Assembly (NCBI GenBank): GCA_017656425.1
Contig: JACDNV010000025.1
Location: 1 to 24,614, forward strand
From: Candidatus Neomarinimicrobiota bacterium
GTDB taxonomy: Bacteria > Fidelibacterota > UBA2242 > B5-G15
Length of the DNA stretch: 24,614 bases
Direction of reading: 5' to 3'
Below are positions 5,195-22,888 of this stretch, one piece after another. Both the position numbers and the translations under genes were made by a program. Within the stretch, counting starts at the first letter, position 1; each line of letters opens with the position of its first letter. The notes beneath the pieces were generated by a model. It searched no databases. It was not told the DNA's origin and saw nothing but the letters and a program-made list of their open reading frames with translations.

Positions 5195-5938
5195 ATGAAA
5201 AAACTTTACTTTTTAATAATAAAACCTGGTTCTTCATATGTAGAATTAAGAAAACGAAATAAAGATTTTGATAATCTTATTGTGAATTTGAGCGACAGAA
5301 ATGATGTTTTATGGACTGTACGAAGTGTGCCTGATGTAGAAATATACAATTTGGGTAAATACAAGGCTATCTTTGTAACGGGCGCTCACAGCTCTATCGT
5401 AACTGGCTATAAATATCTTGATGGATTCAAATGGATAGTTGAGTTAGCAATAAAAAGGAGAATACCAATGCTTGGAATTTGCTTTGGGCATCAGTTGATA
5501 TGTAAAGCGCTTGGAGGCGATGTTAGTCGGAATCCTATGGGTCCGGAGTTTGGAATAAGTAGAATAAACCTAACAATTAACGGTATAGCAGACCCAATAT
5601 TCAGGGGAATAAATAGATCTAAAATGGATGTATATACTTCACATGTCGATAATGTCAGCAGGCTTGGTGCCGATTTTATACAGCTTGCATGGAATGAACA
5701 TTCCATGTATCAGGCGGTTAGGTATGATAATTTTATCTATGGAGTACAATTTCATCCTGAATATACAAAAGAGGTGATGGAATTTTATATAAGAAAGAAC
5801 TGGAAATTGATCGAAAAAGATTATAAGGGAGGTCCGCTTTTCAAAAAAAGACCTGAAGAATTATTAAAAAACATGAAAGAATTAAGAAAACCAAAAATGA
5901 TTATTAAAAACTTTATAACATTGGCAACAAGCATTTAA
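5195..5938 (+). CDS. Class I glutamine amidotransferase domain protein
   Basis: A 247-residue stand-alone GATase1 domain resembling the amidotransferase half of GMP synthase. The catalytic triad is visible: nucleophile C96 in GICFGHQ, H187 and E189 in VQFHPEY. An oxyanion-type strand lies near FVTGAHSSIVTG (~60-71). Such enzymes hydrolyse glutamine or a gamma-glutamyl amide; without a fused synthase domain the acceptor cannot be told. The C-terminal ~45 residues are basic (KKRPEELLKNMKELRKPK). No strong Shine-Dalgarno precedes ATG 5195. It leads a plus-strand group, with the endonuclease V gene starting 7 nt after its stop, so the two are likely co-transcribed. A gamma-glutamyl hydrolase role is also possible. 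Confidence 0.8.
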   Translation: MKKLYFLIIKPGSSYVELRKRNKDFDNLIVNLSDRNDVLWTVRSVPDVEIYNLGKYKAIFVTGAHSSIVTGYKYLDGFKWIVELAIKRRIPMLGICFGHQLICKALGGDVSRNPMGPEFGISRINLTINGIADPIFRGINRSKMDVYTSHVDNVSRLGADFIQLAWNEHSMYQAVRYDNFIYGVQFHPEYTKEVMEFYIRKNWKLIEKDYKGGPLFKKRPEELLKNMKELRKPKMIIKNFITLATSI

Positions 5939-5945
5939 AATTACT

Positions 5946-6674
5946 ATGGATATTATAATATCACATGACTGGAATGTATCGCTAACAACAGCTAAGGGGA
6001 TTCAGAAAGAATTATTTAAAAAAGTTGAGTTTTCAAAAATTGATGTGACAAAAGTAAAAAAAGTATTGGCTGTAGATATTTCCTATCATAGGAAAAGCAA
6101 ACTTGGATTTGCTGTTATGGGAGTATTTAATGTTAGTTATGATATGGATCGAAGGATATTTAATATTAATCAATATAGTATTCATAAAAATATTGCAAAT
6201 GTTAGTTTTCCCTATATACCGGGATTTTTAAGCTTCAGAGAAATTCCTTTATTGATTCCGCTTTTAAATAACTTTAAGGATAAGCCTGATTTAGTTCTAG
6301 TCGATGGTGCAGGTATTGCACATCCCAGAAAGATGGGATTGGCATCCCACATCGGTGTTATTTATGACATACCAACAATAGGGTGTGCGAAATCACGTTT
6401 AATAGGTGATTATGATGAACCTGGTACAAGAAAGGGGAGTTTTTCATATTTGTACTATAAGGGAGAAGTTGTAGGTGCGGTTTTAAGAACAAGGGATTAT
6501 ACACGTCCCCTTTTTATATCACCTGGAAATAAGACTGATATAGAAAGCAGTGTTAGTCTGGTTTTATCCTTCTGTACAAACTATAGAATTCCTGAACCGA
6601 TTCGAATAATTGATAGTAAAACAAAAAAATTTAGAAAAGAATATGAAAGAGGGAAAAATGCGGAAGTTATTTAG
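5946..6674 (+). CDS. nfi: Endonuclease V (deoxyinosine 3' endonuclease)
   Basis: A 242-residue DNA/RNA repair nuclease that nicks near deaminated adenine (inosine). Family landmarks in order: catalytic D44 in VLAVDISY, the strand-separating wedge PYIP (residues 89-92), E99 in FLSFRE, D120 in LVLVDGAGIAHPRKMG, K149 in GCAKSRLIG, and the basic, metal-site block RTRDYTRPLFISPGNKTD (181-198). PEPIR near the C terminus is also typical. Length matches the family (about 220-240). It is 7 nt behind the amidotransferase gene, and its last 17 nt overlap the start of the pspC-like gene, implying translational coupling. The ribosome-binding site is weak, which agrees with coupling to the upstream gene. 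Confidence 0.95.
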   Translation: MDIIISHDWNVSLTTAKGIQKELFKKVEFSKIDVTKVKKVLAVDISYHRKSKLGFAVMGVFNVSYDMDRRIFNINQYSIHKNIANVSFPYIPGFLSFREIPLLIPLLNNFKDKPDLVLVDGAGIAHPRKMGLASHIGVIYDIPTIGCAKSRLIGDYDEPGTRKGSFSYLYYKGEVVGAVLRTRDYTRPLFISPGNKTDIESSVSLVLSFCTNYRIPEPIRIIDSKTKKFRKEYERGKNAEVI

Positions 6675-7071
6675 AAGCAGTTCGAATAGGGTAGTTGCTG
6701 GAGTTTGTGGTGGTCTTGGCGAATATCTTAGTATAGATCCTGTAATAGTTCGTATTATCTGGATACTTCTTCTTTTTTTTGATTGTGTTGGTTTAGTACT
6801 TTATATAATTGCCTGGATTATAATTCCATCAGAGATAAAGGGTGTGTCAGAGGAATTAAAAGAAAATAAATCAAAAATAGAAACATCTTCTAAGAAAAAT
6901 AGCGCGTATCTTATAATAGGTATTACACTGGTGTTATTGGGAGTTATTTTTATCGCAAGAAATTATTGGGTACATGATTACATAATGTATTATCTGCAGT
7001 TCATATATAATTTTATTGTCCCATTGGGATTAATAGCTCTTGGGATTTTTCTAATTTTTAAGAAAAAGTAA
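6658..7071 (+). CDS. PspC-domain membrane protein
   Basis: 137 residues from ATG 6658. An earlier in-frame ATG at 6610 lies deep inside nfi, whereas 6658 has AAGAGGG just upstream and begins exactly at the domain. Residues 1-~60 are a PspC domain: short basic N terminus, then NRVVAGVCGGLGEYLSIDP and a hydrophobic helix ending in YIIAWIIIPSE. A polar linker (~62-82) is followed by two more hydrophobic segments (SAYLIIGITLVLLGVIFIAR and FIVPLGLIALGIFLIFKKK). PspC proteins act in envelope-stress signalling with PspA, but no pspA or pspB is here, so the role is unknown. It overlaps nfi by 17 nt and ends 6 nt from the converging transhydrogenase-like operon. Confidence 0.85.
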   Translation: MRKLFRSSSNRVVAGVCGGLGEYLSIDPVIVRIIWILLLFFDCVGLVLYIIAWIIIPSEIKGVSEELKENKSKIETSSKKNSAYLIIGITLVLLGVIFIARNYWVHDYIMYYLQFIYNFIVPLGLIALGIFLIFKKK

Positions 7072-7077
7072 AATCAA

Positions 7078-9114
7078 CTATTCGATTTTATTCTTCCAAT
7101 CAAGTGCTCCAACAGGACAGTTATCTACACACTCTCCACAATCTTTGCATGAGAATGGCAATGGGTTATTGAAAGCTGTGGAAATAGTTGTATTATAACC
7201 TCTATTAATAAATCCAATAAGTGATTTATTGACCACTTCTTTACATATCTTTACACATATACCGCACTTAATACATTTGTTTCTATCAAGTATTATTTCA
7301 GGATGTCTATTATCATATGAAAATTTTATTTTTTCTCCTTTATAAAATTCTGGATGAGCTCCGTATTTTTCAGATAAAGTTTTTAACTTACAATCATTCT
7401 TGGCAGTGCAGCTACATTCAAGACAACGCTTACCCTCCTCCATAATCTCTTTCTCAGTAAAAGTTTTTGTAATCTCTTTGAATGAATTTTTTCTTTCGCT
7501 GATCGGAATGTAGTGTATCTTCTGTCTTTTTTTATTTATAGGCTCTTTTAAAAACACGAGTTCATCTTTCTTTAAATATTGCCAGTGCCCCCTTGTAACA
7601 TTTATAGAATAAGGTTCTTTGTAGGTTTTCCCCTCGAAAAAGTTCAATATACCTAACGCTATCTTCCTGCCTGCTGCCACGGCTTCGACTACAGATGCAG
7701 GTCCTGTTACGCAATCACCACCCGCAAAAATTTTACCTTTGACTTGATGATTATCGGGATTTATTATTATATCACCCCAACGATTAGTCTCTATTTCCTC
7801 TGGAGCTATTGTTTTTTGACCGATTGCAGAAATTATAGTGTCTGCTTCTACGGTGAATTCTGATTCGGGAATTGGTATAGGTCTTTTTCTTCCGCTGGCA
7901 TCTATCTCTCCCAGTTGCATTTTTTGACAGGTTAGTATTTTTTTACCGTTCTTAATCTCGATTTTGACTGGTGCAACAAGGAATTTAAATATTACACCCT
8001 CTTCTTTTGCTTCTTCTATCTCAATCTTTTCTGCTGGCATTTCACTTTCAGTACGTCTGTAAAAACAGTATACCTCTTTGCTTCCAAGTCTGATGTCTGT
8101 TCTTGCACAATCCATGGCTGTATTTCCACCGCCAATTACGATGGTTTTACCAGGATTCTTCCCATTCCAACCATTTAAGGCGATATTTTTAAGCCAATCG
8201 ATTCCTTTTTCGGTGTGATCTTCGCCTTCAATTCCCATGGAACTTGATTTCCATGATCCTACTGTAATGGCAACAGCATCATATCCATTTGCTAATGCAT
8301 ATAAACTAATATCTTTTCCCAGCTCTTTATTACAATAAAAATTTATACCACCCATTTTGATAAAATGGTCTATCTCCAAATCAACTAACTTTTTAGGCAA
8401 TCGGTATTCAGGGATTCCATATCTCAACATACCTCCCGGCCGTGGTAATTTCTCATATATATCCGATGCTACTCCTGAGAGTCTTAAGAAGTAAGCTACA
8501 GATAAACCAGCAGGACCTGCTCCAACTATGGCTACTTTTTTACCATTCAAAGGTGGTAAATCTTCCATGTATTTATCGTAATACAAGTCGGCAGCTAATC
8601 TCTTAAAGTCATTTATTGCAACTGGTTCCCCGTCAATTAGGTTTCTCCTACAGTCTTTTTCACAAAATCTTGGGCAGACCCTCGAAATTGATATTGGCAA
8701 GGGAATTCTTTCTTTTATTATTATTAGTGATTTAAGAAAATCACCATCTCTTCCAGCCCTAACATATTCCTCGACTCTTGCATGTGCAGGACAGGCAATA
8801 GTACAAGGTGCTTCACAGTCTCCTGTATGCTCGGATAGCAGTAAATTCAGAGCTGTTCTTCTTACTTCGAGAACATCTTCGGTATCTGTTAATATGTCCA
8901 TACCATTCTCTGCTAAAGTCGAGCAGGACGGTATGTATCTGTCATTTCTATTATCTTTTACAACACAGACAAAGCATGATGTGTTGTGGGATATTTTATG
9001 ATTGTAACATAGTGTAGGGATATCTTTGCCCAATTTTAATGCTGCTTGAAGTACTGTTTTTCCCTTTTCGATTTCTATTTCCTGATTGTCTATTTTTAAT
9101 TTTATCTTTTCCAC
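7078..9114 (-). CDS. NuoG-like/NfnB-like fusion subunit of an Stn-type transhydrogenase
   Basis: A 678-residue iron-sulfur flavoprotein. Residues 1-~95 are a NuoG-type [2Fe-2S] domain (C36, C47, C50, C64). H96 and C100/C104/C108, then C147/C151/C155, are cluster ligands at the junction to a GltD/NfnB-like module. FAD binds at AIVGAGPAGL (~195-204). NADPH likely binds at IGGGNTAMD (327-335) with arginines YRR (352-354). C564/C567/C569/C575 form a further cysteine cluster. Two C-terminal [4Fe-4S] ferredoxin motifs follow (613-624 and 656-666). This order matches StnC of the Sporomusa-type Nfn, which bifurcates electrons among NADPH, NAD and ferredoxin. The start codon is GTG, 1 nt after the NuoF-like stop, with GAGGAG at 9119-9124. 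The alternative is a plain NADPH:acceptor oxidoreductase, but the operon supports the Stn reading. Confidence 0.85.
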   Translation of the reverse strand: MEKIKLKIDNQEIEIEKGKTVLQAALKLGKDIPTLCYNHKISHNTSCFVCVVKDNRNDRYIPSCSTLAENGMDILTDTEDVLEVRRTALNLLLSEHTGDCEAPCTIACPAHARVEEYVRAGRDGDFLKSLIIIKERIPLPISISRVCPRFCEKDCRRNLIDGEPVAINDFKRLAADLYYDKYMEDLPPLNGKKVAIVGAGPAGLSVAYFLRLSGVASDIYEKLPRPGGMLRYGIPEYRLPKKLVDLEIDHFIKMGGINFYCNKELGKDISLYALANGYDAVAITVGSWKSSSMGIEGEDHTEKGIDWLKNIALNGWNGKNPGKTIVIGGGNTAMDCARTDIRLGSKEVYCFYRRTESEMPAEKIEIEEAKEEGVIFKFLVAPVKIEIKNGKKILTCQKMQLGEIDASGRKRPIPIPESEFTVEADTIISAIGQKTIAPEEIETNRWGDIIINPDNHQVKGKIFAGGDCVTGPASVVEAVAAGRKIALGILNFFEGKTYKEPYSINVTRGHWQYLKKDELVFLKEPINKKRQKIHYIPISERKNSFKEITKTFTEKEIMEEGKRCLECSCTAKNDCKLKTLSEKYGAHPEFYKGEKIKFSYDNRHPEIILDRNKCIKCGICVKICKEVVNKSLIGFINRGYNTTISTAFNNPLPFSCKDCGECVDNCPVGALDWKNKIE

Positions 9115-9115
9115 C

Positions 9116-10837
9116 TTACTCCTCTTGTTTAATCTTCTTCTTTAAAGGTGTGCGCGAAATTGCATTTTTAGGACAAACCTCTATACAACTGTTACATCTT
9201 GTACATAAATCTACATTTATTACATAATCATTAGAGATCGCGTTTACAGGACATGTTCTTATGCATAGTCCACATTCGATACAAAGGTTTTTATCGAGAT
9301 AAACTTCTACAAGTGAATTACATACCAATGCAGAACACTTTTTTTCCTCAATATGCTCTATGTATTCATTTTTAAAATATTTTAACGTCGATAACACGGG
9401 ATTTGGAGCGGTTTGCCCGAGTCCGCAAAGGGATGCTTTTTTAACTTTGATAGCAAGGTCTTCTAAGGTATTCATATCGTCTTGAGTTGCTTTACCTTCT
9501 GTTATTTTTGTTAAAATTTCAAGCATTCTCTTGGTACCAATTCGACAAAATGTGCATTTACCACAACTCTCTCTAGTTGTAAAGTCTAGAAAGTAACGAG
9601 CTGTTTCTACCATACATCTATATTTTCCGATTACAATAAGTCCACCCGAGCCCATTATTGCTCCGAGTTCGATCAAAGAGTCGTAATCAATGATTGCGTC
9701 AAAGTGCTCTTCTGGTATACAACCGCCACTGGGACCACCAATTTGTACGGCTTTTACAGACCCAATCTCAGCTCCACCAATGTCATATACAATCTCACCA
9801 ATTGTAATCCCCATTGGTACTTCAATTAATCCTGAATATTTTAAATCACCAGCAAGGGCAAATAGCTTTGTACCTTTTGATTTTTCTGTACCGATTTCTG
9901 CAAATTTTTCTCCACCTTCATTTATAATAATTGGAATATTGGCAAAGGTTTCAACGTTATTTATTGCTGTAGGATATCCCATGTATCCATAGTCTGTTGG
10001 ATAAGGTGGACGATATCTTGGATTTCCCCTCCCTCCTTCAAGCGAATGGATCATAGCGGTTTCTTCACCACAGACAAAAGCTCCTGCACCTTCTTTTATA
10101 ATTATAGGTATTTTTTTACCATTTATGATATTAATTTCTTTTTCTTCAACCTGTTTTATTGCTTGAGTAAGATGTTTTATAGCTAGTGGATATTCTGCAC
10201 GAACGTAAATGAAAAGCTTTGTAGCTCCAGTCGCATAAGCACCGATTAACATACCCTCAATTATCTGGTGAGGGACTGATTCCATAAGCGACCTGTCCAT
10301 GAAAGCTCCAGGGTCACCTTCATCACCATTGCATATTAGTATTTTTTCCTCGGAAAATTTTGATGCAAGTATTGACCATTTTAAACCTGTAGGAAAACCT
10401 GCGCCACCACGTCCCCTTAGTCTGGATTTTTTAACCTCTTCAATTATATCTACAGGTTTTAAATCCAGTGCCTTTTGAAGTCCATTATAACCACCGTTTC
10501 TAATATATTCATCTATTGATGTAGGAGATATTCTGCCGCTTAACCTTGTTACTTTAATTAATTCTTTCTCTTTTCTTTTTTGGGGGAATATATGTAAAAA
10601 TTTTTCTTCCTCATTTAATATAGCGTTCAAATATTCATCGCTCGGTCTGACGTTGGAATAAAACAAAGAACCTTTATCTGTTTCTACCTCAACGATTGGT
10701 TCTGCATAACAATGTCCTATACAACCCACTTTTATTATTTCGATGTCCTTTATTTTTGAAGTAAGGAAATTGTAAACCTCTTCTGCACCAGCGGCAATTC
10801 CACAGCTTGCAGTTCCAACTTTAATCCTTTTTATCAT
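9116..10837 (-). CDS. NuoF/HydB-like NADH-binding flavoprotein subunit
   Basis: A 573-residue protein like the NADH-oxidising subunit of complex I and of bifurcating HydABC/Stn complexes. Residues 1-~85 are a thioredoxin-like domain with C12, C39 and C43 visible as likely [2Fe-2S] ligands. The NuoF core follows, with the FMN/NADH loops RGRGGAGFPTGLKW (141-154) and NGDEGDPGAFMDRS (170-183). ESCGKCTFCRIGTKRM ligates the NuoF-type [4Fe-4S] cluster. The last 55 residues are a two-cluster ferredoxin domain (CIECGLCIRTCP and CTRCNSCIEVCP), absent from respiratory NuoF but typical of HydB-like subunits. It overlaps the NuoE-like gene by 4 nt (ATGA) and abuts the fusion subunit. No [FeFe] hydrogenase subunit is present, arguing against a hydrogenase. 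Confidence 0.9.
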   Translation of the reverse strand: MIKRIKVGTASCGIAAGAEEVYNFLTSKIKDIEIIKVGCIGHCYAEPIVEVETDKGSLFYSNVRPSDEYLNAILNEEEKFLHIFPQKRKEKELIKVTRLSGRISPTSIDEYIRNGGYNGLQKALDLKPVDIIEEVKKSRLRGRGGAGFPTGLKWSILASKFSEEKILICNGDEGDPGAFMDRSLMESVPHQIIEGMLIGAYATGATKLFIYVRAEYPLAIKHLTQAIKQVEEKEINIINGKKIPIIIKEGAGAFVCGEETAMIHSLEGGRGNPRYRPPYPTDYGYMGYPTAINNVETFANIPIIINEGGEKFAEIGTEKSKGTKLFALAGDLKYSGLIEVPMGITIGEIVYDIGGAEIGSVKAVQIGGPSGGCIPEEHFDAIIDYDSLIELGAIMGSGGLIVIGKYRCMVETARYFLDFTTRESCGKCTFCRIGTKRMLEILTKITEGKATQDDMNTLEDLAIKVKKASLCGLGQTAPNPVLSTLKYFKNEYIEHIEEKKCSALVCNSLVEVYLDKNLCIECGLCIRTCPVNAISNDYVINVDLCTRCNSCIEVCPKNAISRTPLKKKIKQEE

Positions 10838-11295
10838 TGAATTTCACCTCGCTTGTATCTCTTTAATATTTTTATAAGAGATTTTCTATCCAGTTTACCA
10901 TACACTTTTCCATTTATTGATATTACAGGAGCTAAGCTACAGCATCCTAGACATGCAACTATTTCGACAGAAAATAGCCCCTCGAACTCGTTTTTATTAT
11001 TTAGATTGATTTCTTCGTCGATCCATTCTTTGATCAGTTTCGATCCCTTTATGTGGCATGCTGTTCCATCACAAATTAAAATATGATATTTACCGGGCTT
11101 TTGCCTCTTAAATTGTGTATAAAAAGATACAACTCCTTCAACTTCAACGGGGGCTAAGTTAAAATACTCCGCTATTGTTTTTATACTATCATTGGAAATA
11201 TAACCTTCGTTTTGCTGAATGAGCTGCAGTGCTTTTATCAAATTGCTTTTTTCCTTAGAGATTTGCTTGATGATTTCGGTATAGTTGTTGTTCAT
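10834..11295 (-). CDS. NuoE/HydC-like [2Fe-2S] thioredoxin-fold subunit
   Basis: 153 residues from ATG 11295. An in-frame TTG at 11307 would add four residues, but it lies inside the ribosome-binding site (GAGG followed by six A before ATG), so 11295 is chosen. A helical N-terminal half includes the family stretch FNLAPVEVEGVVSFYTQF. The thioredoxin-fold half carries the four [2Fe-2S] ligands C75 and C80 (CDGTAC) and C115 and C119 (CLGCC). Such subunits hand electrons between the NuoF-like flavin site and neighbouring clusters. It is the first gene of the three-gene operon and is translationally coupled by ATGA to the NuoF-like gene. A -24/-12 promoter-like sequence sits upstream at 11342-11327. 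Confidence 0.92.
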   Translation of the reverse strand: MNNNYTEIIKQISKEKSNLIKALQLIQQNEGYISNDSIKTIAEYFNLAPVEVEGVVSFYTQFKRQKPGKYHILICDGTACHIKGSKLIKEWIDEEINLNNKNEFEGLFSVEIVACLGCCSLAPVISINGKVYGKLDRKSLIKILKRYKRGEIQ

Positions 11296-11326
11296 TTTTT
11301 TCCTCAAAATATCATTTTATTTTGGA

Positions 11327-11342
11327 GGCAAAGTTTATACCA
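11327..11342 (-). promoter_or_regulatory. Candidate sigma-54 promoter of the transhydrogenase-like operon
   Basis: On the minus strand the sequence is TGGTATAAACTTTGCC. It fits the -24/-12 consensus (TGGCAC, 5 nt, TTGC) with invariant GG and GC at the correct spacing. Transcription would start near 11316, giving a leader of about 20 nt before ATG 11295 that includes the GAGG site. It mirrors a similar site for the divergent gdh gene. Confidence 0.5.
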
Positions 11343-11433
11343 TATAAAAATAGCCTGAAAATAGATAGTTTATTGAGTTAAATTTCCACAATTTTTTAGA
11401 AACGGAAAAATAATTTAATAATCAAAGTATAAA

Positions 11434-11451
11434 TTTTCAATTATTGAGAAA
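11434..11451. promoter_or_regulatory. Possible enhancer-protein site between divergent sigma-54-like promoters
   Basis: TTTTCAATTATTGAGAAA is a near-perfect palindrome, with one mismatched pair per arm around the centre. It lies about 60-80 bp upstream of the gdh -24 element and about 90 bp from the operon's -24 element. Those distances suit a bacterial enhancer-binding protein. The sequence is AT-rich, so chance is a real alternative. Confidence 0.25.
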
Positions 11452-11511
11452 TATTATTGTTTATCTTGAATAATTAAATAATAATCCTCAACGTTAGAGT
11501 GTGACCGGATA

Positions 11512-11527
11512 TGGCACTGTTTTTGTC
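11512..11527 (+). promoter_or_regulatory. Candidate sigma-54 promoter of the NAD-type glutamate dehydrogenase
   Basis: TGGCACTGTTTTTGTC has a perfect -24 hexamer TGGCAC and, 5 nt on, TTGT in place of TTGC at -12. Predicted transcription start is about 11537, leaving a ~26-nt leader with the GGAGGA ribosome-binding site before ATG 11563. The -12 deviation (C to T) lowers confidence; the divergent partner site raises it. Confidence 0.5.
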
Positions 11528-11562
11528 CTTTTATTTAATGTAATTTTAATCGGAGGAAGAAA

Positions 11563-12915
11563 ATGATTGGCAATCAATTTTATTCAACCCCTGAAGATTT
11601 CATGAATTATGTTATTGCTAAAAATCCGGGTGAGAGTGAATTTCACCAAGCAGTTAGAGAATTTGTATTATCAGTGTGGGATTTTATTTTAGAGAATCCT
11701 ATTTATATTGAGAATAAGATTCTTGAGAGAATAGTTGAGCCAGAAAGGGTAATTATTTTTCGTGTTCCGTGGGTAGATGATAATGGTGAAATACAAGTAA
11801 ATAGGGGTTTTAGAGTGGAATTTAATTCTGCATTGGGTCCTTATAAAGGTGGATTGAGGTTCCACCCATCAGTGAATCTTAGTATATTAAAGTTTCTAGG
11901 ATTTGAGCAGATTTTTAAGAATTCCCTGACTGGGTTGCCGATGGGTGGGGGAAAAGGTGGTTCGGATTTTAATCCCAAGGGTAAATCTGACATGGAGATA
12001 ATGAGGTTTTGTCAGTCTTTCATGACGGAACTTTACAGACATATTGGAGAAGACACCGATGTGCCAGCTGGAGATATAGGTGTCGGTGCTAGAGAAATTG
12101 GTTATATGTTTGGTATATATAAAAAGTTAAAAAATGAATTTACTTGTGTGTTTACTGGTAAAGGTCTGGAATGGGGTGGCAGCATTCTTCGTCCAGAGGC
12201 AACAGGATATGGTGTAGTATATTTTGCTGAAGCTATGCTTAATGAAGTAGGTGACTCTATTGAAGGAAAAACTGTGGCTGTTAGTGGTTTTGGTAATGTT
12301 GCGTGGGGTATTGTGAAAAAGGTAAATGAATTAGGTGGTAAAGTCGTTACACTTTCTGGTCCTGATGGATATATATATGACCCCGATGGTGTGAATGGTG
12401 AAAAAGTTGATTTAATGCTTGAGTTACGTGCATCAAATCAGGATATTATCCGACCGTATGCTGAAAAATTTGGTGTAGAATTTTTCTCTGGTCGTAAACC
12501 TTGGGAACGGAAGGTTGATATTGCTTTTCCATGTGCTATACAGAATGAATTGGATGCTGATGATGCTCAACGTCTCGTCGAAAATAGTACCATAGCAGTT
12601 GTCGAAGGTGCTAATATGCCCTGTACTATTGATGCGATTGATATTTTTCAGAAAGCAAAGATACTTTACGCTCCTGGAAAAGCTGCAAATGCAGGGGGTG
12701 TGGCAGTTTCAGGTCTTGAAATGGCTCAAAATAGCATGAGATTAAGATGGTCTAGTGAAGAGGTAGATACCTATTTAAAGTCGATTATGAAAAATATTCA
12801 TGATACTTGCGTGAAGTATGGAAAAAAAGGTGACTATGTGGATTATGTAAGAGGTGCTAATATAGGCGGATTTATAAAAGTGGCTGATGCAATGATAGAT
12901 CAGGGGGTAATCTGA
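11563..12915 (+). CDS. gdh: Glutamate dehydrogenase, NAD-type coenzyme signature
   Basis: A 450-residue hexameric (class I) glutamate dehydrogenase interconverting glutamate and 2-oxoglutarate plus ammonia. Substrate and catalytic residues are in place: K95 in GPYKGGLRFHPS, K131 in LPMGGGKGGSDFNP, D171 in PAGDIGVGAREIG. The Rossmann loop reads SGFGNVAWG (F243), and the end of the second strand reads LSGPDGYIYDPDG (P267, D268). These match F238, P262 and D263 of the NAD-specific Clostridium symbiosum enzyme, so NAD and a catabolic direction are inferred. The start ATG follows GGAGGA closely. It diverges from the transhydrogenase-like operon and has a sigma-54-like promoter. A close paralogue with different coenzyme residues lies 1.1 kb downstream. 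Confidence 0.95.
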   Translation: MIGNQFYSTPEDFMNYVIAKNPGESEFHQAVREFVLSVWDFILENPIYIENKILERIVEPERVIIFRVPWVDDNGEIQVNRGFRVEFNSALGPYKGGLRFHPSVNLSILKFLGFEQIFKNSLTGLPMGGGKGGSDFNPKGKSDMEIMRFCQSFMTELYRHIGEDTDVPAGDIGVGAREIGYMFGIYKKLKNEFTCVFTGKGLEWGGSILRPEATGYGVVYFAEAMLNEVGDSIEGKTVAVSGFGNVAWGIVKKVNELGGKVVTLSGPDGYIYDPDGVNGEKVDLMLELRASNQDIIRPYAEKFGVEFFSGRKPWERKVDIAFPCAIQNELDADDAQRLVENSTIAVVEGANMPCTIDAIDIFQKAKILYAPGKAANAGGVAVSGLEMAQNSMRLRWSSEEVDTYLKSIMKNIHDTCVKYGKKGDYVDYVRGANIGGFIKVADAMIDQGVI

Positions 12916-13997
12916 TTTAGTATTGATAGGCCTTTTCATCTTTGTAATATTTTATTTTCCCTTTTAGTATCATTTTTCACTCGAGTGTAAATATGTGGAC
13001 TATATATAGGTTAATAATATTTAGTCTGATACTTTTTATTTATTCTTTCGTATATGAATGCGTGAATGTAACAATTTTTAAAAATACGAGCTTAACAATT
13101 CATTCTGCGGGAATTAAAGCTAAAAAGTAGTATCCAACATAAACTTGCTTCAATAAGTATTGATAATCTTAATATTGTTAAAAATCAGAATTATTTTATT
13201 TTTAAAAGTATGAAATTGTATCTTGATATGTATAGGCCCAAATGTAGGTACAAACTGATTGTCTATTACTTTAACGATGTGTAATGTTATACGGGAATTT
13301 TGAAGTTAGAAAGCGATTATTGATTTTTTTAGATATTTAGTTTGAATTAAAGAACACATGTGATAATATAAACGACTCAAAAGCTTTCATCACGAGTGCG
13401 TATAGAGAAAATTTTACGAGTTTGGATTACCTGAATCAGTATGTTATAAAATATAATGCCAAAGTGATAGGTGTTATAAAATATTTAATATAATTGCTGA
13501 TATTGGCAGTATAATCGATATATGATATAACTGTTATATTTGATGAGAGAAAAGGTATGATTACAGGTAAGCTATCTTCGGAAAAGTTATAATTTGGTTA
13601 TTACTATAGAGAACGCAAAAATCTGCTGGCTGAGAATTAGTCAATAGGTCATATAGATGAAAGTGTCCTTCTTGGTTTGAATGTTAATATTACAAGATCA
13701 AAATTTCGTAGGGTAGATGTAGATTTAGGAAATATTATGAGAAATATAAGCTTGGGAGTATCCTTCATACTTTCTGTCTATTTCGTTCTTAGTATAATGA
13801 TTTAGCCAATATAAAGCTTCAGATTAGCAAATATAAATAAACAGATAAAAATATTTAAAAATTATTTTTGAGAAATTTTATTTATGTGATTATGATAATA
13901 ATTGTATAAAATATTTTTAGTTCGCGATTTTTTTGTTTAAAAAGAAAAATTTCAAGCAATAAATTCCTGAGTTTTTTAGAAGAGGAGGTACTAAAAA
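12916..13997 (+). pseudogene. Decayed gene between the two glutamate dehydrogenases
   Basis: No intact ORF, but coding traces run in plus-strand frames from about 12993 to 13805. ATG 12993 opens 45 codons with a signal-peptide-like start (LIIFSLILFIYSFVYEC), ending at TAG 13128-13130. One frame over, the text continues LKSSIQHKLASISIDNLNIV, then FKSMKLYLDMYRPKCRYKL. Later fragments include ERKGMITGKLSSEK and LLGLNVNITRSKFRRVDVDL, ending at TAG 13803-13805. The alternating beta-strand pattern and GxITGKL-like repeats loosely suggest an AsmA/GspN-like envelope protein, but I would not name it. Beyond 13805 the DNA is AT-rich spacer leading to the second gdh, with no convincing promoter. Confidence 0.45.
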
Positions 13998-15347
13998 ATG
14001 TACGGAAAATATTATTCATCACCTGATGATTTCATGAGTTATGTGATTGCAAAAAATCCTGGAGAGAGTGAGTTTCACCAGGCAGTTAGAGAATTTATTA
14101 ATTCAATATGGGATTTTTTAGTAGATAATCCTATATATATTGAGAATAAAATATTGGAGAGGATTATAGAACCTGAAAGAATAATAATATTCAGGGTTCC
14201 ATGGGTTGATGACAGAGGGAATATTAATGTAAATAGAGGGTTTAGAGTCCAGTTTAATTCGGCATTGGGACCATATAAGGGAGGTTTAAGATTTCACCCT
14301 TCAGTGAATTTGAGCATAATGAAATTTTTGGGATTTGAACAAATTTTTAAAAATTCCTTGACCGGGCTTCTATTGGGTGGGGGAAAAGGTGGTTCTGATT
14401 TCAACCCCAAGGCTAAATCTGATATGGAAGTAATGAAGTTTTGCCAATCCTTCATGAGGGAATTGTATAGATACATAGGTCCTGATACAGATGTTCCAGC
14501 TGGAGATATTGGTGTTGGTGGCAGAGAAATTGGATATTTGTTTGGAGAATATAAGAAGTTAAAGAATGAATTTTCTGGATCGTTAACTGGCAAGGGAATA
14601 AACTGGGGTGGTAGTTATATCAGACCAGAAGCGACTGGGTATGGCGCTATCTATTTTGCAGAAGAAATGTTAAAAACTGTTGGAGAAAGCATAAAGGGTA
14701 AGACAGTTGCGATTTCAGGTAGCGGGAATGTTGCACAATATGCAGCCAAAAAAGTTTTAGAAGTAGGAGGAAAAGTTGTAACACTTTCAGACTCTAATGG
14801 AACAATCTATGATCCGGATGGAATTGATGAAGATAAATTAAGTTTTGTATTTTATCTTAAGAATGTTAGAAGAGGAAGAATAAGGGAGTACGCTGAGAAG
14901 TATAAAGTACAATATTGGGAGAATAAAAAGCCCTGGAAAGTAAAATGTGATATTGCCATTCCATGTGCTACTCAAAATGAGATTAATGGAGATGATGCAA
15001 GAACATTAATAAAAAACGGATGTTTTTGTGTTGTTGAGGGAGCCAATATGCCTTCTACATTGGAAGCAATTGATGAGTTTCAGCAGGCAAAGGTACTATT
15101 CGCTCCTGCAAAAGCCGCAAATGCAGGTGGTGTGGCAGTTTCAGGATTGGAAATGACCCAAAATAGTATAAGATTAACATGGACAAAAGAAGAGGTTGAT
15201 AATAAGCTGAGAGATATTATGAAAAATATACACGCTACGTGCGTAAAGTATGGAAAAAATGGTGAAACTGTTGACTATATAAGAGGAGCAAATATAGCTG
15301 GATTTATTAAAGTGGCTGACGCAATGATAGATCAAGGGATTGTTTAA
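13998..15347 (+). CDS. gdhA: Glutamate dehydrogenase, NADP-type coenzyme signature
   Basis: A 449-residue class I glutamate dehydrogenase, highly similar throughout to the enzyme at 11563-12915. Core residues are kept: K94 in GPYKGGLRFHPS, K130 in GGGKGGSDFNP, D170 in PAGDIGVGGREIG. The coenzyme site differs: the Rossmann loop is SGSGNVAQY (S242 for F243) and the second strand ends LSDSNGTIYDPDG (S266, N267 for P267, D268). Serines at these positions are typical of NADP-dependent enzymes, so a biosynthetic or NADPH-linked role is inferred. LTGLLLGGGKGG replaces the usual LPMGGGKGG just before the catalytic lysine. The start ATG has a strong GAGGAGG site. No sigma-54-like promoter was found upstream, suggesting regulation separate from its paralogue. 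Confidence 0.95.
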   Translation: MYGKYYSSPDDFMSYVIAKNPGESEFHQAVREFINSIWDFLVDNPIYIENKILERIIEPERIIIFRVPWVDDRGNINVNRGFRVQFNSALGPYKGGLRFHPSVNLSIMKFLGFEQIFKNSLTGLLLGGGKGGSDFNPKAKSDMEVMKFCQSFMRELYRYIGPDTDVPAGDIGVGGREIGYLFGEYKKLKNEFSGSLTGKGINWGGSYIRPEATGYGAIYFAEEMLKTVGESIKGKTVAISGSGNVAQYAAKKVLEVGGKVVTLSDSNGTIYDPDGIDEDKLSFVFYLKNVRRGRIREYAEKYKVQYWENKKPWKVKCDIAIPCATQNEINGDDARTLIKNGCFCVVEGANMPSTLEAIDEFQQAKVLFAPAKAANAGGVAVSGLEMTQNSIRLTWTKEEVDNKLRDIMKNIHATCVKYGKNGETVDYIRGANIAGFIKVADAMIDQGIV

Positions 15348-15498: not shown

Positions 15499-18465
15499 CT
15501 ATTTTTTATATATAATTGCGATACCCTTTCTACCATCCATCAATATTTTTTGTGGGTTTTTAGCCCTTGAATGTACTAGGAAATTAGTTTCCTTTACGAC
15601 AGGAAGCTGTTTGAGCCATTTCCAATCGATAAATGAGTTGCTATTATTATTTATTACAAGATATCCTATATTCATTGATATTAAATTGTGTAAAAAATGC
15701 GTTCCCTGTGATAATTCAACATTAAAGTCATTAAGAATTACTTCCGTAATTACGTTCGCATTACATATCTGGTAAAATTTTACAGGTATACCAAGAAATC
15801 TATCGGCAGTACCCCACCTACCAGGACCTATTAGGATATATTTTTTATTTTCTTTTTTTATTTCTTCGTTTAAGACCTCAACTTCTTTCTGAATTTCTAA
15901 AGTTCTTGTATTGTCAAATTTTTCCGGCTTTACATAAATAATATCATGAATGTCGTCTATTATACCATTTCCAAGACTATTATTGGTCATTAACCAGATA
16001 TCTTCTTTTTTTATATTTTTTAAGTCAATGTCAACAATTTGTGTTCTTGAAATAGAGGGTCGAATTTGGAGTATATAGAATTTAGATATTTCTTTTGATA
16101 GTTTTAAGGCAAACTCTATTTCGACTGGTCCACCAAAGGCCATTTTCCCAATTTCAAGTATATTTTCGATAATTTCAGAAAACGGTACTCTGTTATATTT
16201 CAGAATGTTATCGAAACTAAACATTACAGAATATTTTGGTTTGTCTTCTCGATAGGGTATTATTTTATTATTCTCGTGATCATATATAGAGGCACAATGT
16301 TTCAAAATTAATTTATTATTTAGTTTGTCTAAGCAGAGTTTTCTCATTGTACAATCTTCATTGCTGATTAGATCAAATTTATTGTTATTTAAATCAATTG
16401 CATAATAGTAGGTTGGGGTTTTTCGTAATAAAGTATCAATGTCGAAAAGATTTACCTTAGGATATTTTGGTGAGAATCTATAGCCGATTCCATCAGTAAC
16501 TACAGCTTTTCCGAGCCCAATTGCTATAAGTGCTATACTATCTGAATAAGTGAGAGGAGATACTGGATAATAGTTGTGTGATGATGCTATGCCCGATATT
16601 GCGGGGTAGAAATAACCTGGTTCGTATTCATCTCCTACAATTTTTTGCAGGATTACAGCCATTTTTTCTTCTTCAATTTTATGATTAATGCTTTCTATAT
16701 ATCCCCTTGCTGATTTCAGAAAAACAGAGGCATATACGAGTTTTATTGCGGATTCAAGTTGTTTCAATCTTACAAGTTTATCTGGGTGATTATTTGGTAT
16801 CATGTATGTTCTATAAATTCCAGCGAATGATTCGTATGTAGAATCCTCGAGAAGGCCTGAAGACCTGACTGCCAATGGCGTTTTTATTTGATCAATATAA
16901 ATAGAAAGCTTTTCTCTTAACTCATCTGATAATTTATAGTTTATAAATGTTTCATTTATTTCTCTATCAGAAAGTGAAATTATTTCGGTAATATCAATAT
17001 TATTTTCATCAATAAATTTATCGTATTCATTTGTACCTATAATAGATGTGCATGGTTGCAATATTGGAAGGTTGGCGTACCTATTTTCAAGATTCATTGA
17101 TACAATAATATTATTCATAAACGCTATACCACGTCCTTTTCCACCCAGCGAGCCTTCGCTAAGTAAAATTATTTTAAAAGGATCTGTGAGGCTGTTTGGA
17201 TCAAAGTGAATGATTTTTCCTTTATTTTTCCTTTCTCTAATGGTTCTGATGGAATTTATTAGGTGGCTTTTTAATTCAGCTATTGAGTTAAAATCTTCTG
17301 GTTTTAATGGTCTTAGCTTTTTTGCTATTTGTATTTCACCTCTTGCCAGTAGCCATGTAGAAAAATGATTTCTATTGCTATGATATAGCACAGATTCGTC
17401 GGGAACTTCTTTCAGCTTTTCTTCAAATTCGTAAATAGTTTTTGCAACAGTGACAATGCCCTTGCCAGGGACTTGAAATTTGAAATCACCAAACCCTAAA
17501 CTTTCAAGCATAAAGTTGCGAATTTCATGTAAAAGATTTTGGGAAAATTTGTTTATAAGGGTTACGCCTAATTCCTTAGCTTTTTCTTCATGGCTTTGAT
17601 CCGATGACATTAAGATGCAAGGAATGTCATTTTTTTTATCCTGCCTTACCATGGATACCAGTTTTAATCCAGCTTCATTATCCATCTGATTGTGGTTCGG
17701 GAAACGAATATCCGATATTACTGAGAGTATATATTCCTTATATTTGTTGTAATAATAAATGGCATCTTCATAAGTATGAAGTAAAATTATTTTGGGTCTG
17801 ACTCTCATCCTAAGTCGTTTTTGTATGTCGCTTAATTCTTCCTCAATGAGTAGTTGGGTTTGTTTCATTACCTCTGTATAAAGCAAGGGAAGGAAGATTG
17901 AGTAATATTGTACAGAATCTTCAACAAGTAAAATTACTCTTACGAGACCAATTCTTGTATCGTTTTCGATGTTTTTTTTATCTTCTATGGATTTTACCAT
18001 GGCAAGAAATATTTTAGCATCGCCATTCCATAGGAATATGTCATCGATATATTTGTAAAGTTGATTTAAGTATGGCTGTATCTCCTCTACCTCAGCGTTG
18101 GATTTCAATAGCAGTAGGATAGGAAGGTTCTGAAACTTTGTTTTTATTTGTTTTGCGAATTCAAGTGTAGTTATATCTCCTACATTAAGTAGTGTGATAA
18201 TTAAATCAAATTTTTTATTGTCAAGTAGTTTTAGGGCTTCGTCGGGCATTGAAGCATTTGTGATCCTTGGCGCAGTACTCAGGTTTAATTGCTTATATTC
18301 ACCATAGATTTGTTCAGAAAGACCACTATCCTGTTCAAGTGTAAAAGCATCATAAATGGAAGATAAAAGGAGAATCTCCCTTACTCTATTTTTCATTAAT
18401 TCATGGTAGCTGTCTTCACCATATTTGAGAAGGTTGAAAAATGAACAAAGGTTTTCAGCATTCAT
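15499..18465 (-). CDS. PEP/pyruvate-binding protein with N-terminal receiver domains
   Basis: A 988-residue multidomain protein. Residues ~28-160 look like a degenerate receiver (LLLSSIYDA, FDLIITLLNVGD). Residues ~173-320 are a second receiver with ED at 182-183, D252 (VISDIRFP), S287 (LMSSDQ) and K306 (INKFS). A linker with the segment HSNRNHFSTWLLARGE (362-377) leads to a PPDK/PEP-synthase N-terminal ATP-grasp domain from ~430: EGSLGGKGRGIAF (437-449) and LAVRSSGLLEDSTYESFAG (531-549), with EIEFAL and ILQIRPS toward its end. A C-terminal domain begins GPGRWGTADRFLGIPV. The phosphohistidine swivel domain and TIM-barrel of true PEP synthase are missing, so it is probably a regulator or specialised phosphotransferase. 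The start ATG has GGAG upstream. It lies 71 nt after the radical SAM gene, probably in one transcript. Confidence 0.8.
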   Translation of the reverse strand: MNAENLCSFFNLLKYGEDSYHELMKNRVREILLLSSIYDAFTLEQDSGLSEQIYGEYKQLNLSTAPRITNASMPDEALKLLDNKKFDLIITLLNVGDITTLEFAKQIKTKFQNLPILLLLKSNAEVEEIQPYLNQLYKYIDDIFLWNGDAKIFLAMVKSIEDKKNIENDTRIGLVRVILLVEDSVQYYSIFLPLLYTEVMKQTQLLIEEELSDIQKRLRMRVRPKIILLHTYEDAIYYYNKYKEYILSVISDIRFPNHNQMDNEAGLKLVSMVRQDKKNDIPCILMSSDQSHEEKAKELGVTLINKFSQNLLHEIRNFMLESLGFGDFKFQVPGKGIVTVAKTIYEFEEKLKEVPDESVLYHSNRNHFSTWLLARGEIQIAKKLRPLKPEDFNSIAELKSHLINSIRTIRERKNKGKIIHFDPNSLTDPFKIILLSEGSLGGKGRGIAFMNNIIVSMNLENRYANLPILQPCTSIIGTNEYDKFIDENNIDITEIISLSDREINETFINYKLSDELREKLSIYIDQIKTPLAVRSSGLLEDSTYESFAGIYRTYMIPNNHPDKLVRLKQLESAIKLVYASVFLKSARGYIESINHKIEEEKMAVILQKIVGDEYEPGYFYPAISGIASSHNYYPVSPLTYSDSIALIAIGLGKAVVTDGIGYRFSPKYPKVNLFDIDTLLRKTPTYYYAIDLNNNKFDLISNEDCTMRKLCLDKLNNKLILKHCASIYDHENNKIIPYREDKPKYSVMFSFDNILKYNRVPFSEIIENILEIGKMAFGGPVEIEFALKLSKEISKFYILQIRPSISRTQIVDIDLKNIKKEDIWLMTNNSLGNGIIDDIHDIIYVKPEKFDNTRTLEIQKEVEVLNEEIKKENKKYILIGPGRWGTADRFLGIPVKFYQICNANVITEVILNDFNVELSQGTHFLHNLISMNIGYLVINNNSNSFIDWKWLKQLPVVKETNFLVHSRAKNPQKILMDGRKGIAIIYKK

Positions 18466-20697: not shown

Positions 20698-20859
20698 TAT
20701 GAATCTTTAAAAATTAATTCCTGAATCAACATATACGTATTTAATTTAATATTTGAATATTTTATATGAAAGGACAAATTGGGGAAAAGTATTGCTATTT
20801 AACTGGCGTATTTGGAAGCTGAGAATAAACTGGGGAAGAATTAACTTTCTTGAATCTGA

Positions 20860-21452
20860 CTTTACTTTTATTATAATTAGCACAGTCATTCCCAAGGGTA
20901 ATTTAACCCCTGAGATTATAGCTACGATTAAATATGTATCTGATCCACAGATTTCGCCTGATTCTAATAATATAGCTTTTGTAGATACGGAGATTGACAT
21001 GAATAGTTCAAAGAATTATAGTAGTTCCAATATATGGATTGTTCCGACAGATGGAAGCGAGAAACCACGAAAGTATACTTTTTCAGATAAGGATGAGAAA
21101 ATGCCTCGCTGGTTTCCTGATGGAAAATATCTGGTTTTCTTTCAAATCATGATGATGGGGATACATATCAGATTTACATAATGAGAACTGATGGTGGAGA
21201 AGCTTACAAATTGACGAATCATAGTGGTGGAGTAGTTAATTACAAGTGGGGGAAAAATTCTAATACTATATTTTTCGTTGCGATCGATTCGCTTACAAAG
21301 TTTGAAAAGGAAAGAAAGGAGAAAAAAGATGATGAGATAATACTGGATTATAACTATAAATCCTGTAGACTATATGAGATTGATATACAGTCAAGAGAGA
21401 TTAAATTATTAACCGAAGATAAACAAAATGTTAACGATTTTGGTTGGGAGGC
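20860..21452 (+). pseudogene. 5' remnant of an S9-family (prolyl-oligopeptidase-like) peptidase
   Basis: The text NLTPEIIATIKYVSDPQISP (from 20900), then DSNNIAFVDTEID, NIWIVPTDGSEKPRKYTFSD and MPRWFPDGKYLVFF is the start of the beta-propeller of S9 peptidases and acylaminoacyl peptidases. A frameshift near 21138-21145 moves the reading to SNHDDGDTYQIYIMRTDGGE, then AYKLTNHSGGVVNYKWGKNS, ending at NVNDFGW where homology stops. The catalytic alpha/beta-hydrolase half is absent: the degenerate insertion sequence begins there. The upstream signal-peptide region is also scrambled. The surviving part is about 190 codons of a protein that is usually 600-700 residues long. Confidence 0.7.
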
Positions 21453-21535
21453 TCAGTGATATGGTGGTACAGACCATAGACAGGATTAAGTGAGGGGGTT
21501 ATAGAATTTTTGCCGAATAATTTGTCGAGGATTAT

Positions 21536-21557
21536 TCGTAGAATCCCTGTTCGTGAG
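21536..21557. repeat. Double-hairpin mini-repeat, copy A
   Basis: TCGTAGAATCCC followed by TGTTCGTGAG. The most diverged of the four copies. With the preceding T, the first hairpin is TTC-GTA-GAA. Removing 22 nt joins transposase residues PP to IILDKLF in frame. Confidence 0.7.
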
Positions 21558-21783
21558 TGGAGGCATGAATGCGATACTTGGGGATATTTTATAATCTTTC
21601 AGGATATTTACCGGGGTTTTGAATTTTTTATATGAGTTTTCCCCCAGGGAATTGAAATAGAATTGATAAAATGAAGCTTTATTAAGGAAATCTTTTATTG
21701 AGCTGAATGATTCTATGCAGTGGAATTCGTCTTCGATTAATCTATGAGAGGATTCTACATCGGCATTAGCATTGGGGTAATGT

Positions 21784-21805
21784 GTCCGTAGAATCCCTAA
21801 TCGGG
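21784..21805. repeat. Double-hairpin mini-repeat, copy B
   Basis: CCGTAGAATCCC followed by TAATCGGGAG. Same orientation as copies A, C and D. It sits between the transposase segments KYIP and HYPNANADVES; removing 22 nt restores the frame and the usual family spacing. Confidence 0.85.
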
Positions 21806-21951
21806 AGTGGTATATATTTCACCTTAGCATTCCAATTCTTTTCGACATATTTTTTATATCCTCTGTTGTGATGTATTCTTATCCCACTAAACTCAGAGCC
21901 GTTATCAACTTGAATTGTTATTTTTTCTGGATCAATTCCATGCTTGGATAT

Positions 21952-21973
21952 CCGTAGGATCCCTAATCGGGAG
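21952..21973. repeat. Double-hairpin mini-repeat, copy C
   Basis: CCGTAGGATCCC followed by TAATCGGGAG. With the preceding T, hairpins are TCC-GTA-GGA and TCCC-TAATC-GGGA. It splits KLLFEH from SKHGIDPEKI in the transposase; removing 22 nt rejoins them in frame. Confidence 0.85.
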
Positions 21974-22243
21974 ATGCTCAAACAATAATTTCACAGAGAT
22001 TATTGTCGATGTTACACTTTTCTCATATGTATAGAAATAAAAGAGTGTTCCAGAGCGTACATCCCTTGCTGTGATTTGATATCTTGGTAGTCTGTATTTG
22101 CAGTAGTATTTAAAAAACTCTGGTATATCATCAAGATATTTTACATCCATCTGTATCACCTCAAAAGGTTTTAATCAATCACTCCCTTCTGAAATCGTAT
22201 AATATTATCTTTGCTTTTAGTTTTTTATTTGCTATGATACTAT

Positions 22244-22265
22244 CCGTAGGATCTCTAATCGGGAT
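22244..22265. repeat. Double-hairpin mini-repeat, copy D
   Basis: CCGTAGGATCTC followed by TAATCGGGAT. It lies just behind the likely transposase start codon (ATG 22272). Removing 22 nt places that ATG in frame with SIIANKKLKAK. Confidence 0.8.
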
Positions 22266-22315
22266 AGGTCATGTTTTTTCTCCTTATCTTTGATTCCTTT
22301 TCTAAATATCTCAAA

Positions 22316-22343
22316 GAGCATAGCCTGTCCACGGGCTATGCTC
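22316..22343. repeat. Perfect 10-bp stem-loop near the IS right end
   Basis: GAGCATAGCC (22316-22325) and GGCTATGCTC (22334-22343) form a strong hairpin with an 8-nt loop, just upstream of the transposase start on the minus strand. There is no proper U-tract on either strand. Possible roles are a weak terminator or a structure in the IS leader that blocks read-through translation. Confidence 0.6.
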
Positions 22344-22397
22344 TCATCATTCATTACACTTAATTTAATCAATTCTACCGTACCACTATATGCATGA

Positions 22398-22588
22398 ACT
22401 TTCCCGTAAAGCAGTTATAAAAATCTTGATTTTTAGATAATGGATTAATATCTTAGAAAAACAGGGTTTTTCGCATTTAATAGTTCAATCTAGAGGATTG
22501 TGGCGCGTGATTTTTCATAAAGTAAAAAGGGAAATAGGAAAGGATGAAATTGATAACAGGTTAGCTAAAATTAACTGACGTTAAATTT
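22398..22588 (+). pseudogene. Possible C-terminal remnant of a SPOR-like domain gene
   Basis: Between the IS and the next ORF, plus-strand codons from 22441 to TGA 22576-22578 read WINILEKQGFSHLIVQSRGL, then WRVIFHKVKREIGKDEIDNR, then LAKIN. The pattern (long helix, GF-h-IVQS-G-WRV, helix) resembles the end of a SPOR peptidoglycan-binding domain. A TAA at 22438-22440 cuts it off from the upstream DNA in the same frame. Short and divergent, so the call is tentative. Confidence 0.3.
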
Positions 22589-22888
22589 ATGTTGCGTGAT
22601 GGATTATATGAGTTAGATTACATAGAGGATACTATCTTGGGGGAGCTCTCCCATTTTTTAAGTGCGAATGTCGACAAGACTACAAAATTTTGTTGTGTTG
22701 ATGTCCCTGTACCAAGATCTAGGACAGGGTGTGTTAGAAATTTGAAGAATAAGCTGGAAGAATCTAGAAAAATTACTGTCTATATTCGTCCATATTTAGC
22801 GTTGCGAAGTACTTCGTTTGTAGAAGTAATTTTTGCTGCCCTTTGTTTTTTTTCTATTTATATTTTTTGGCGTAATTTAGAAGTTTAA
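22589..22888 (+). CDS. Small hypothetical protein with C-terminal membrane segment
   Basis: 99 residues, not recognised. A soluble, mixed-charge N-terminal part contains two adjacent cysteines (KFCCVDVPVPRSRTGCVRN). It ends in one hydrophobic segment, FVEVIFAALCFFSIYIFW (about residues 77-94), so it may be a tail-anchored protein. No strong ribosome-binding site precedes ATG 22589, and the region just upstream is decayed, so this could itself be a fragment. It ends 12 nt before the next gene, which has its own strong site, so the two may be co-transcribed. Confidence 0.4.
   Translation: MLRDGLYELDYIEDTILGELSHFLSANVDKTTKFCCVDVPVPRSRTGCVRNLKNKLEESRKITVYIRPYLALRSTSFVEVIFAALCFFSIYIFWRNLEV

Follow-up and report, generated by a model that had tools for sequence, protein, structure and literature searches.

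A compact Stn-like transhydrogenase operon beside NAD-type and NADP-type glutamate dehydrogenase genes in a Neomarinimicrobiota genome

We analyzed a 24,614-nt stretch of DNA from Candidatus Neomarinimicrobiota (hereafter the window; contig C25 of a 2.8-Mb assembly, designated G000), in which an operon for an Stn-like NADH/NADPH/ferredoxin transhydrogenase lies next to two genes for class-I glutamate dehydrogenases (GDH1 and GDH2). This operon encodes a compact form of the known enzyme Stn, one without a description in the literature searched. We consider it probable (about 65%) that this bifurcating transhydrogenase (compact Stn, Nfn-Bfu) is tied to amino-acid nitrogen metabolism, linking a GDH that makes NADH with one that uses NADPH. 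An earlier reading of the same sequence (the original prediction) had proposed two class-I GDHs and a three-gene Stn-like operon, and all five open reading frames (ORFs; three stn, two GDH) were found with the same coordinates (Table 1).

Transhydrogenase and GDH genes as neighbors

The original prediction had tied its reading to the presence of the adjacency in relatives, and a search found the GDH–Stn neighborhood conserved across four families of the order. Stn adjoins GDH in G000 and in seven other genomes of the order (G003, G008, G009, G011, G016, G017, and G020). The shared arrangement, which we call slot A, runs from amidotransferase, endonuclease V (EndoV), and PspC-domain genes through the transhydrogenase to GDH and a PPDK_N protein; its PspC side alone is visible in G001, G005, and G021 because contigs end there. 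The order stnA-stnB-stnC is the same in related loci with a long enough contig. The Stn-adjacent GDH of relatives may be of either coenzyme type, a point that the original prediction had missed: it is NAD-type in G003, G009, and G011 and NADP-type in G008, G016, and G020, and the visible part in G017 stops short of the coenzyme domain. The window has both types, with the NAD-type nearer Stn. Beyond the phylum, two Myxococcota metagenome-assembled genomes (MAGs; L185 and L188) have an NADP-type GDH upstream of stnABC.

Several Stn-less relatives carry an unrelated transhydrogenase, NfnAB. In G018 and G019, nfnAB occupies slot A, convergent with the PspC-EndoV-amidotransferase genes, and in G019 nfnB lies directly upstream of an NAD-type GDH. 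Another arrangement, slot B, consists of aminotransferase/SerA and BCAT-CMD genes followed by a transhydrogenase. In G004, G012, G013, and G014 its transhydrogenase is nfnAB, and aminotransferase and 2-oxoacid:ferredoxin oxidoreductase genes come next; G006 and G015 have Stn beside BCAT-CMD. The aminotransferase-oxidoreductase part of G000 is elsewhere in the genome, without a transhydrogenase, and G002 was not placed in the slot scheme. An order-wide count of 23 genomes gave 14 with Stn, six with Nfn, three with neither, and none with both (p = 0.0008 for exclusion, a value that overstates independence because the genomes are related). No NfnB match was found in G000 at E ≤ 1e-100, and its StnC-like protein is partnered by NuoE/NuoF-like subunits, not by the FNR-like NfnA that accompanies NfnB.

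The occurrence, in one place among relatives, of either Stn or an unrelated transhydrogenase of like function suggests that the GDH–transhydrogenase pairing is functional. Without recourse to biochemistry, the exchange is also evidence from genomes that Stn and NfnAB have a common role, one connected with the metabolism of glutamate and amino acids. A published survey found Stn and Nfn to be nearly exclusive in acetogens (PMC7483475), and in Clostridium thermocellum the locus tag of the NADPH-GDH (Clo1313_1847) is consecutive with those of nfnAB (Clo1313_1848-1849) (PMC9888227).

We also noted that G019 (loci L077 and L249) has two near-identical nfnB pieces, each at a contig end and both broken at nearly the same base; GDH adjoins one and PspC the other. 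They may reflect an inverted nfnAB duplication or strain variation.

A short form of StnC

The minus-strand genes encode, as predicted, adjacent NuoE-like, NuoF-like, and NuoG-N/GltD fusion proteins, whose best solved relatives include Sporomusa ovata StnABC (8oh5). The StnC-like protein (P0003) aligns with S. ovata StnC over residues 2-671 (44.4% identity over 658 residues). It keeps the shared cluster cysteines up to C666, together with K171 (S. ovata K170), the lysine of the unusual cluster, and R238 (R239); both K171 and R238 are invariant in 62 StnC sequences. It has valine at the position of S. ovata C114, a replacement published for some homologues (PMC10482914). The StnB-like protein (P0004), whose best solved match is 9n5u_B (9n5u being an NfnA/NfnB entry of the Nfn-Bfu type), keeps the five ligands of the B2 cluster and bifurcation site (C408, T446, H495, C501, and C506; threonine is common at position 446) and the marker residues A178 and M180. 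These five ligands, including the histidine, are absent from non-bifurcating HydB homologues. Its Fer4 domain at 512-560 corresponds to the C-terminal 2x[4Fe-4S] of BfuB, and the ligands that mark BfuABC are present. The three proteins are predicted to assemble into a complex that couples NADH, ferredoxin, and NADPH by bifurcation.

The original prediction was right in kind about the complex and missed that its StnC is a short form: the FdhF-like C-terminal domain (683-1172 in S. ovata StnC) is absent from P0003, and the next gene 3′ is on the other strand. Deletion of this domain left no active S. ovata complex, and it is needed for assembly and activity (PMC10482914). A genome scan returned 236 relatives, of which we examined the best 80 loci; these were fetched with short-form motifs and are not a random sample. 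The StnC frame ends at about one point in all 80, ruling out truncation by an assembly artefact. Hosts of the short form include Neomarinimicrobiota, Lentisphaerota, Halanaerobiales, Spirochaetales, and Myxococcota/Deltaproteobacteria MAGs, and a cultured species, Victivallis vadensis DSM 14823 (L183), has it too. Among the branches listed, short StnCs form one group in a FastTree phylogeny of 62 sequences plus S. ovata, which was chosen as the outgroup; the longer StnCs (970-1003 aa) of another Neomarinimicrobiota family lie off the short-form branch. Published StnC lists reach down to 891 aa (PMC7483475), and a literature search brought up nothing that dealt directly with Stn in Lentisphaerota or Halanaerobiales. 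An AlphaFold model of StnC was set aside (mean predicted local distance difference test score of 58, built with 13 sequences). The short clade offers a natural test of the published need for the FdhF-like domain in a working Stn.

In Halanaerobiales and related MAGs (L148, L161, and L165), the short Stn operon lies in a folD-xseA-ispA-dxs-like cluster (names assigned by eye), not beside GDH.

The glutamate dehydrogenase pair and layout of the locus

The coenzyme-site residues named in the original prediction (F243/P267/D268 in GDH1, S242/S266/N267 in GDH2) were recovered, and align with F238/P262/D263 of the Clostridium symbiosum enzyme and Ser/Ser/Ser of the Escherichia coli enzyme. Positions 243, 248, 266, 267, and 289 are fixed by type across 19 NAD-type and 39 NADP-type GDHs, with one exception, at 267, and the fixed residues agree with the C. 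symbiosum and E. coli enzymes. GDH1 has the C. symbiosum-type F/G/P/D signature and falls in the NAD clade; GDH2 has the E. coli-type S/D/S signature and falls in the NADP clade. The two enzymes thus probably differ in coenzyme, GDH1 using NAD and GDH2 NADP; the same preference in both, an outcome contrary to the original prediction, is not what their signatures and separate coenzyme-domain clades point to. Family names do not settle the type of GDH1, which passes both the NADP-specific NCBIfam model PRK09414 and a general model; GDH2 passes PRK09414. The original prediction had also stated that changing the three C. symbiosum residues to serine-type ones moves preference toward NADP. The shift is real (NADH:NADPH preference at pH 8 fell from 1930:1 in the wild type to 3:1 in F238S/P262S), but no mutant came to prefer NADPH, and D263 was replaced by lysine (D263K), not serine (PMC3157743).

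We noted that GDH2 departs from near-invariant residues at M127L (C. symbiosum M121), G140A, H160Y, and G372A (GDH1 numbering), changes that may alter substrate handling.

The claim that the two enzymes are near-identical except at the coenzyme site did not hold: they are 72% identical (323/446), with 127 differing positions. Their substrate domains (residues 1-200) are 83% identical, a value above those for all orthologs used, and their coenzyme domains (residues 201-380) 59%, below the values for own-type orthologs; identity at four-fold sites also differs between domains (51% vs 35%, ∼50 sites per domain). FastTree phylogenies and constrained topology tests gave different histories for the two domains. 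NAD and NADP types separate without exception in the coenzyme-domain tree (support 1.0) and are intermingled in the substrate-domain tree. The whole-protein tree keeps them apart except for one tandem copy in G059, and this split is itself weakly supported. The window pair are sisters in the substrate-domain tree (0.91), a placement that the constrained test merely fails to reject. Recent duplication is out, as sisterhood in the coenzyme domain was rejected (p-AU 0.001) and each copy falls in its own-type clade; a plain two-clade history of the whole gene is likewise out for residues 1-200, where NAD monophyly was excluded (delta lnL 159).

These histories suggest that neighboring GDH copies likely underwent gene conversion in the substrate domain while selection held their coenzyme domains apart. 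With all coenzyme-contacting segments removed, the domain signal no longer decides, so selection on those segments is a possible cause as well. G059 and G077 have tandem GDH pairs as well. A literature search on GDH gene conversion found nothing directly on point. The pair provides a native system for how tandem enzymes keep coenzyme specificity apart.

GDH1 and GDH2 are the sole GDH-family genes in the assembly. The stnABC genes form a tightly coupled operon (7078-11295), with the stnA stop overlapping the stnB ATG and at most two bases from the stnB end to the stnC start. The ORF list starts stnA at a TTG (11307); the ATG at 11295, behind GAGG, is more likely. The gap between GDH1 and GDH2 is AT-rich (25.9% G+C vs 33.0% for the window), no terminator-like site was found between the two genes, and Rfam gave no matches.

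Table 1. Features around the stnABC and GDH genes of the window
Feature	Positions	Strand	Description
StnC-like P0003 (BfuA/NfnA of Nfn-Bfu)	7078..9114	-	678 aa, GTG start, without FdhF-like domain; 2Fe-2S/NuoG N-terminal, then GltD/NfnB-like FAD-NADP(H), then C-terminal 4Fe-4S dicluster
StnB-like P0004 (HydB/NuoF-like)	9116..10837	-	573 aa; N-terminal thioredoxin-like part, FMN/NADH domain, N3-type 4Fe-4S, C-terminal 2x[4Fe-4S]
StnA-like (HydC/NuoE-like)	10834..11295	-	thioredoxin-fold [2Fe-2S] subunit
Intergenic region	11296..11562		separates divergent stnABC and GDH1 start codons
GDH1	11563..12915	+	class-I hexameric glutamate dehydrogenase; NAD-type signature F243/G266/P267/D268
Gap between GDH1 and GDH2	12916..13997		1,082 bp; no ORF of 80 aa
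GDH2	13998..15347	+	class-I hexameric glutamate dehydrogenase; NADP-type signature S242/D265/S266/N267; own ribosome-binding site
Conserved slot flank	5195..7071	+	class-I amidotransferase 5195-5938, endonuclease V 5946-6674, PspC-domain protein 6610-7071
Conserved slot flank	15499..18465	-	PPDK_N/response-regulator-like protein, convergent with GDH2

The PPDK_N protein with a response-regulator-like N-terminus (15499-18465) is found at or near GDH in many Neomarinimicrobiota, including G025, G028, and G033, which lack the short Stn. PPDK_N proteins are likewise neighbors of an unrelated GDH (428 aa) in G008 and G020 and of the GDH–Stn locus of L188, and a regulatory link between the PPDK_N protein and GDH is possible. 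At L188:4353-5441, a gene for an NrpR-type nitrogen regulator lies directly beside the NADP-type GDH, near stnABC. Elsewhere in the window, at 21535-22269, lies a dispersed repeat of 21-27 nt (TCCGTAGGATCCCTAATCGGGAGTGG) that contains a short inverted core; the genome has 37 copies of it at two or fewer mismatches (none for the reversed control). By eye, 20753-22888 appears to hold disrupted coding sequence, with N-terminal pieces resembling peptidase S9 in two frames, and after it a stretch rich in repeats.

Proposed working and known systems

The working we propose for the locus is as follows. GDH1 would turn glutamate and NAD+ into NADH, ammonium, and 2-oxoglutarate, and a 2-oxoacid:ferredoxin oxidoreductase, genes for which are present elsewhere in the genome, would reduce ferredoxin. 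StnABC would reversibly join NADH and reduced ferredoxin to make NADPH, with which GDH2 would assimilate ammonium. Within the complex, NADPH would meet flavin adenine dinucleotide (FAD) in StnC, and electrons would pass along the StnC Fe-S chain to flavin mononucleotide (FMN) in StnB, there to divide between NAD+ and ferredoxin, or to merge in reverse. The transhydrogenase would thereby tie the coenzyme pools together, which may explain why either GDH type is found beside it and either transhydrogenase in the slot. The original prediction had cast the cluster as a redox hub; the Stn/NfnAB exchange in one slot and the lack of genomes with both add support, and the combined flux itself, like its direction, its regulation, and a joint function of the neighborhood, is something we infer.

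Several observations weigh against this proposal. The genome also has GOGAT (glutamate synthase), so ammonium may enter mainly by a route other than GDH2, and the type of the Stn-adjacent GDH varies among relatives, so no single flux direction is implied. The genes stnABC and gdh are divergent and not one operon, and the ORF upstream of stnA in G002 is not a GDH. StnC lacks a domain essential in S. ovata, and deletion of nfnAB in C. thermocellum left amino-acid secretion unchanged (PMC9888227). Most relatives are draft MAGs; G018 and G019 have 4-5% estimated contamination, with the two broken nfnB copies in G019, and the relatedness of the counted genomes tempers the exclusion statistic.

The locus might instead run in reverse, with an NADP-type GDH oxidizing glutamate and StnABC splitting NADPH electrons to ferredoxin and NAD+, yielding energy from amino acids and not a supply of NADPH. 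The GDH that adjoins Stn is NADP-type in G008, G016, and G020, as in the Myxococcota MAGs, and the reaction is reversible: the peptide fermenter Thermococcus sibiricus reduces ferredoxin from NADPH with this enzyme type (PMC9304861). We nonetheless think reversal improbable here, as the NAD-type GDH directly beside Stn in the window would yield NADH without Stn, and a search of the genome found no [FeFe]-hydrogenase to take up reduced ferredoxin. Equally little weight falls on an old synteny without joint function, in which the genes are adjacent through descent and the transhydrogenase supplies biosynthesis in general. The divergent orientation fits such a history, as do Halanaerobiales MAGs with the same Stn beside folD and xseA, most Lentisphaerota loci, which show no GDH within the fetched flanks, and Stn-less genomes that keep GDH beside PspC without a transhydrogenase. 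Pure descent, however, leaves unexplained the unrelated same-reaction enzyme in slot A of G018 and G019, the Stn of G006 and G015 at a locus holding nfnAB in relatives, and the separate Myxococcota case.

It is very unlikely that the short complex is a simple NADPH:acceptor or NADPH:NAD+ oxidoreductase that does not bifurcate because its StnC is without the FdhF-like domain. The inactive S. ovata deletion (PMC10482914) speaks for it; yet the electron-path and bifurcation-site ligands are kept, the published electron path bypasses the FdhF branch, T. sibiricus NfnA bifurcates with a shorter C-terminus (PMC9304861), and a clade spanning several phyla conserves the short form alongside intact StnA and StnB.

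Returning to a transhydrogenase that links the two GDHs, we offer a tentative and rather doubtful extension: minimal Stn and NfnAB would be interchangeable modules that follow amino-acid nitrogen genes in this lineage, and the module would free the neighboring GDH to switch type, partly by recombination that homogenizes the substrate domains of tandem copies, coenzyme domains staying apart. If true, the GDH mosaic would parallel in nature the domain-swapped GDH made in the laboratory, of which we take structure 2yfh to be an example.

Among characterized GDHs, that of C. symbiosum (1bgv) resembles GDH1 in F, G, P, and D at the coenzyme positions and is 59% identical to it. GDH2 resembles E. 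coli GdhA (3sbo/4fcc; 58% identity) in S, D, and S and in Q at the W248 position; unlike GdhA, it has N and not S at the fourth coenzyme position, along with M127L and further departures from near-invariant residues.

The transhydrogenase is close in plan to S. ovata StnABC (8oh5/8oh9; PMC7483475, PMC10482914), with which it shares the StnA-StnB-StnC order, the domains over StnC 2-671, the Fe-S ligands, K170, R239, and the StnB bifurcation-site residues. It differs in its StnC (678 vs 1172 residues, no FdhF-like domain, valine for C114) and in adjoining GDH genes and not a Wood-Ljungdahl cluster. The subunit plan is also that of T. sibiricus Nfn-BfuABC (PMC9304861). NfnA of 9n5u has 963 aa and is without the cysteines of the second dicluster cluster, whereas P0003 is shorter and keeps all eight dicluster cysteines. 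NfnAB shares with Stn the overall reaction, and its NADP(H) subunit is GltD-like and a homologue of the middle part of P0003; its NfnA is unrelated to StnA and StnB, and the special cluster has Glu in NfnB in place of the Lys of Stn (PMC10482914).

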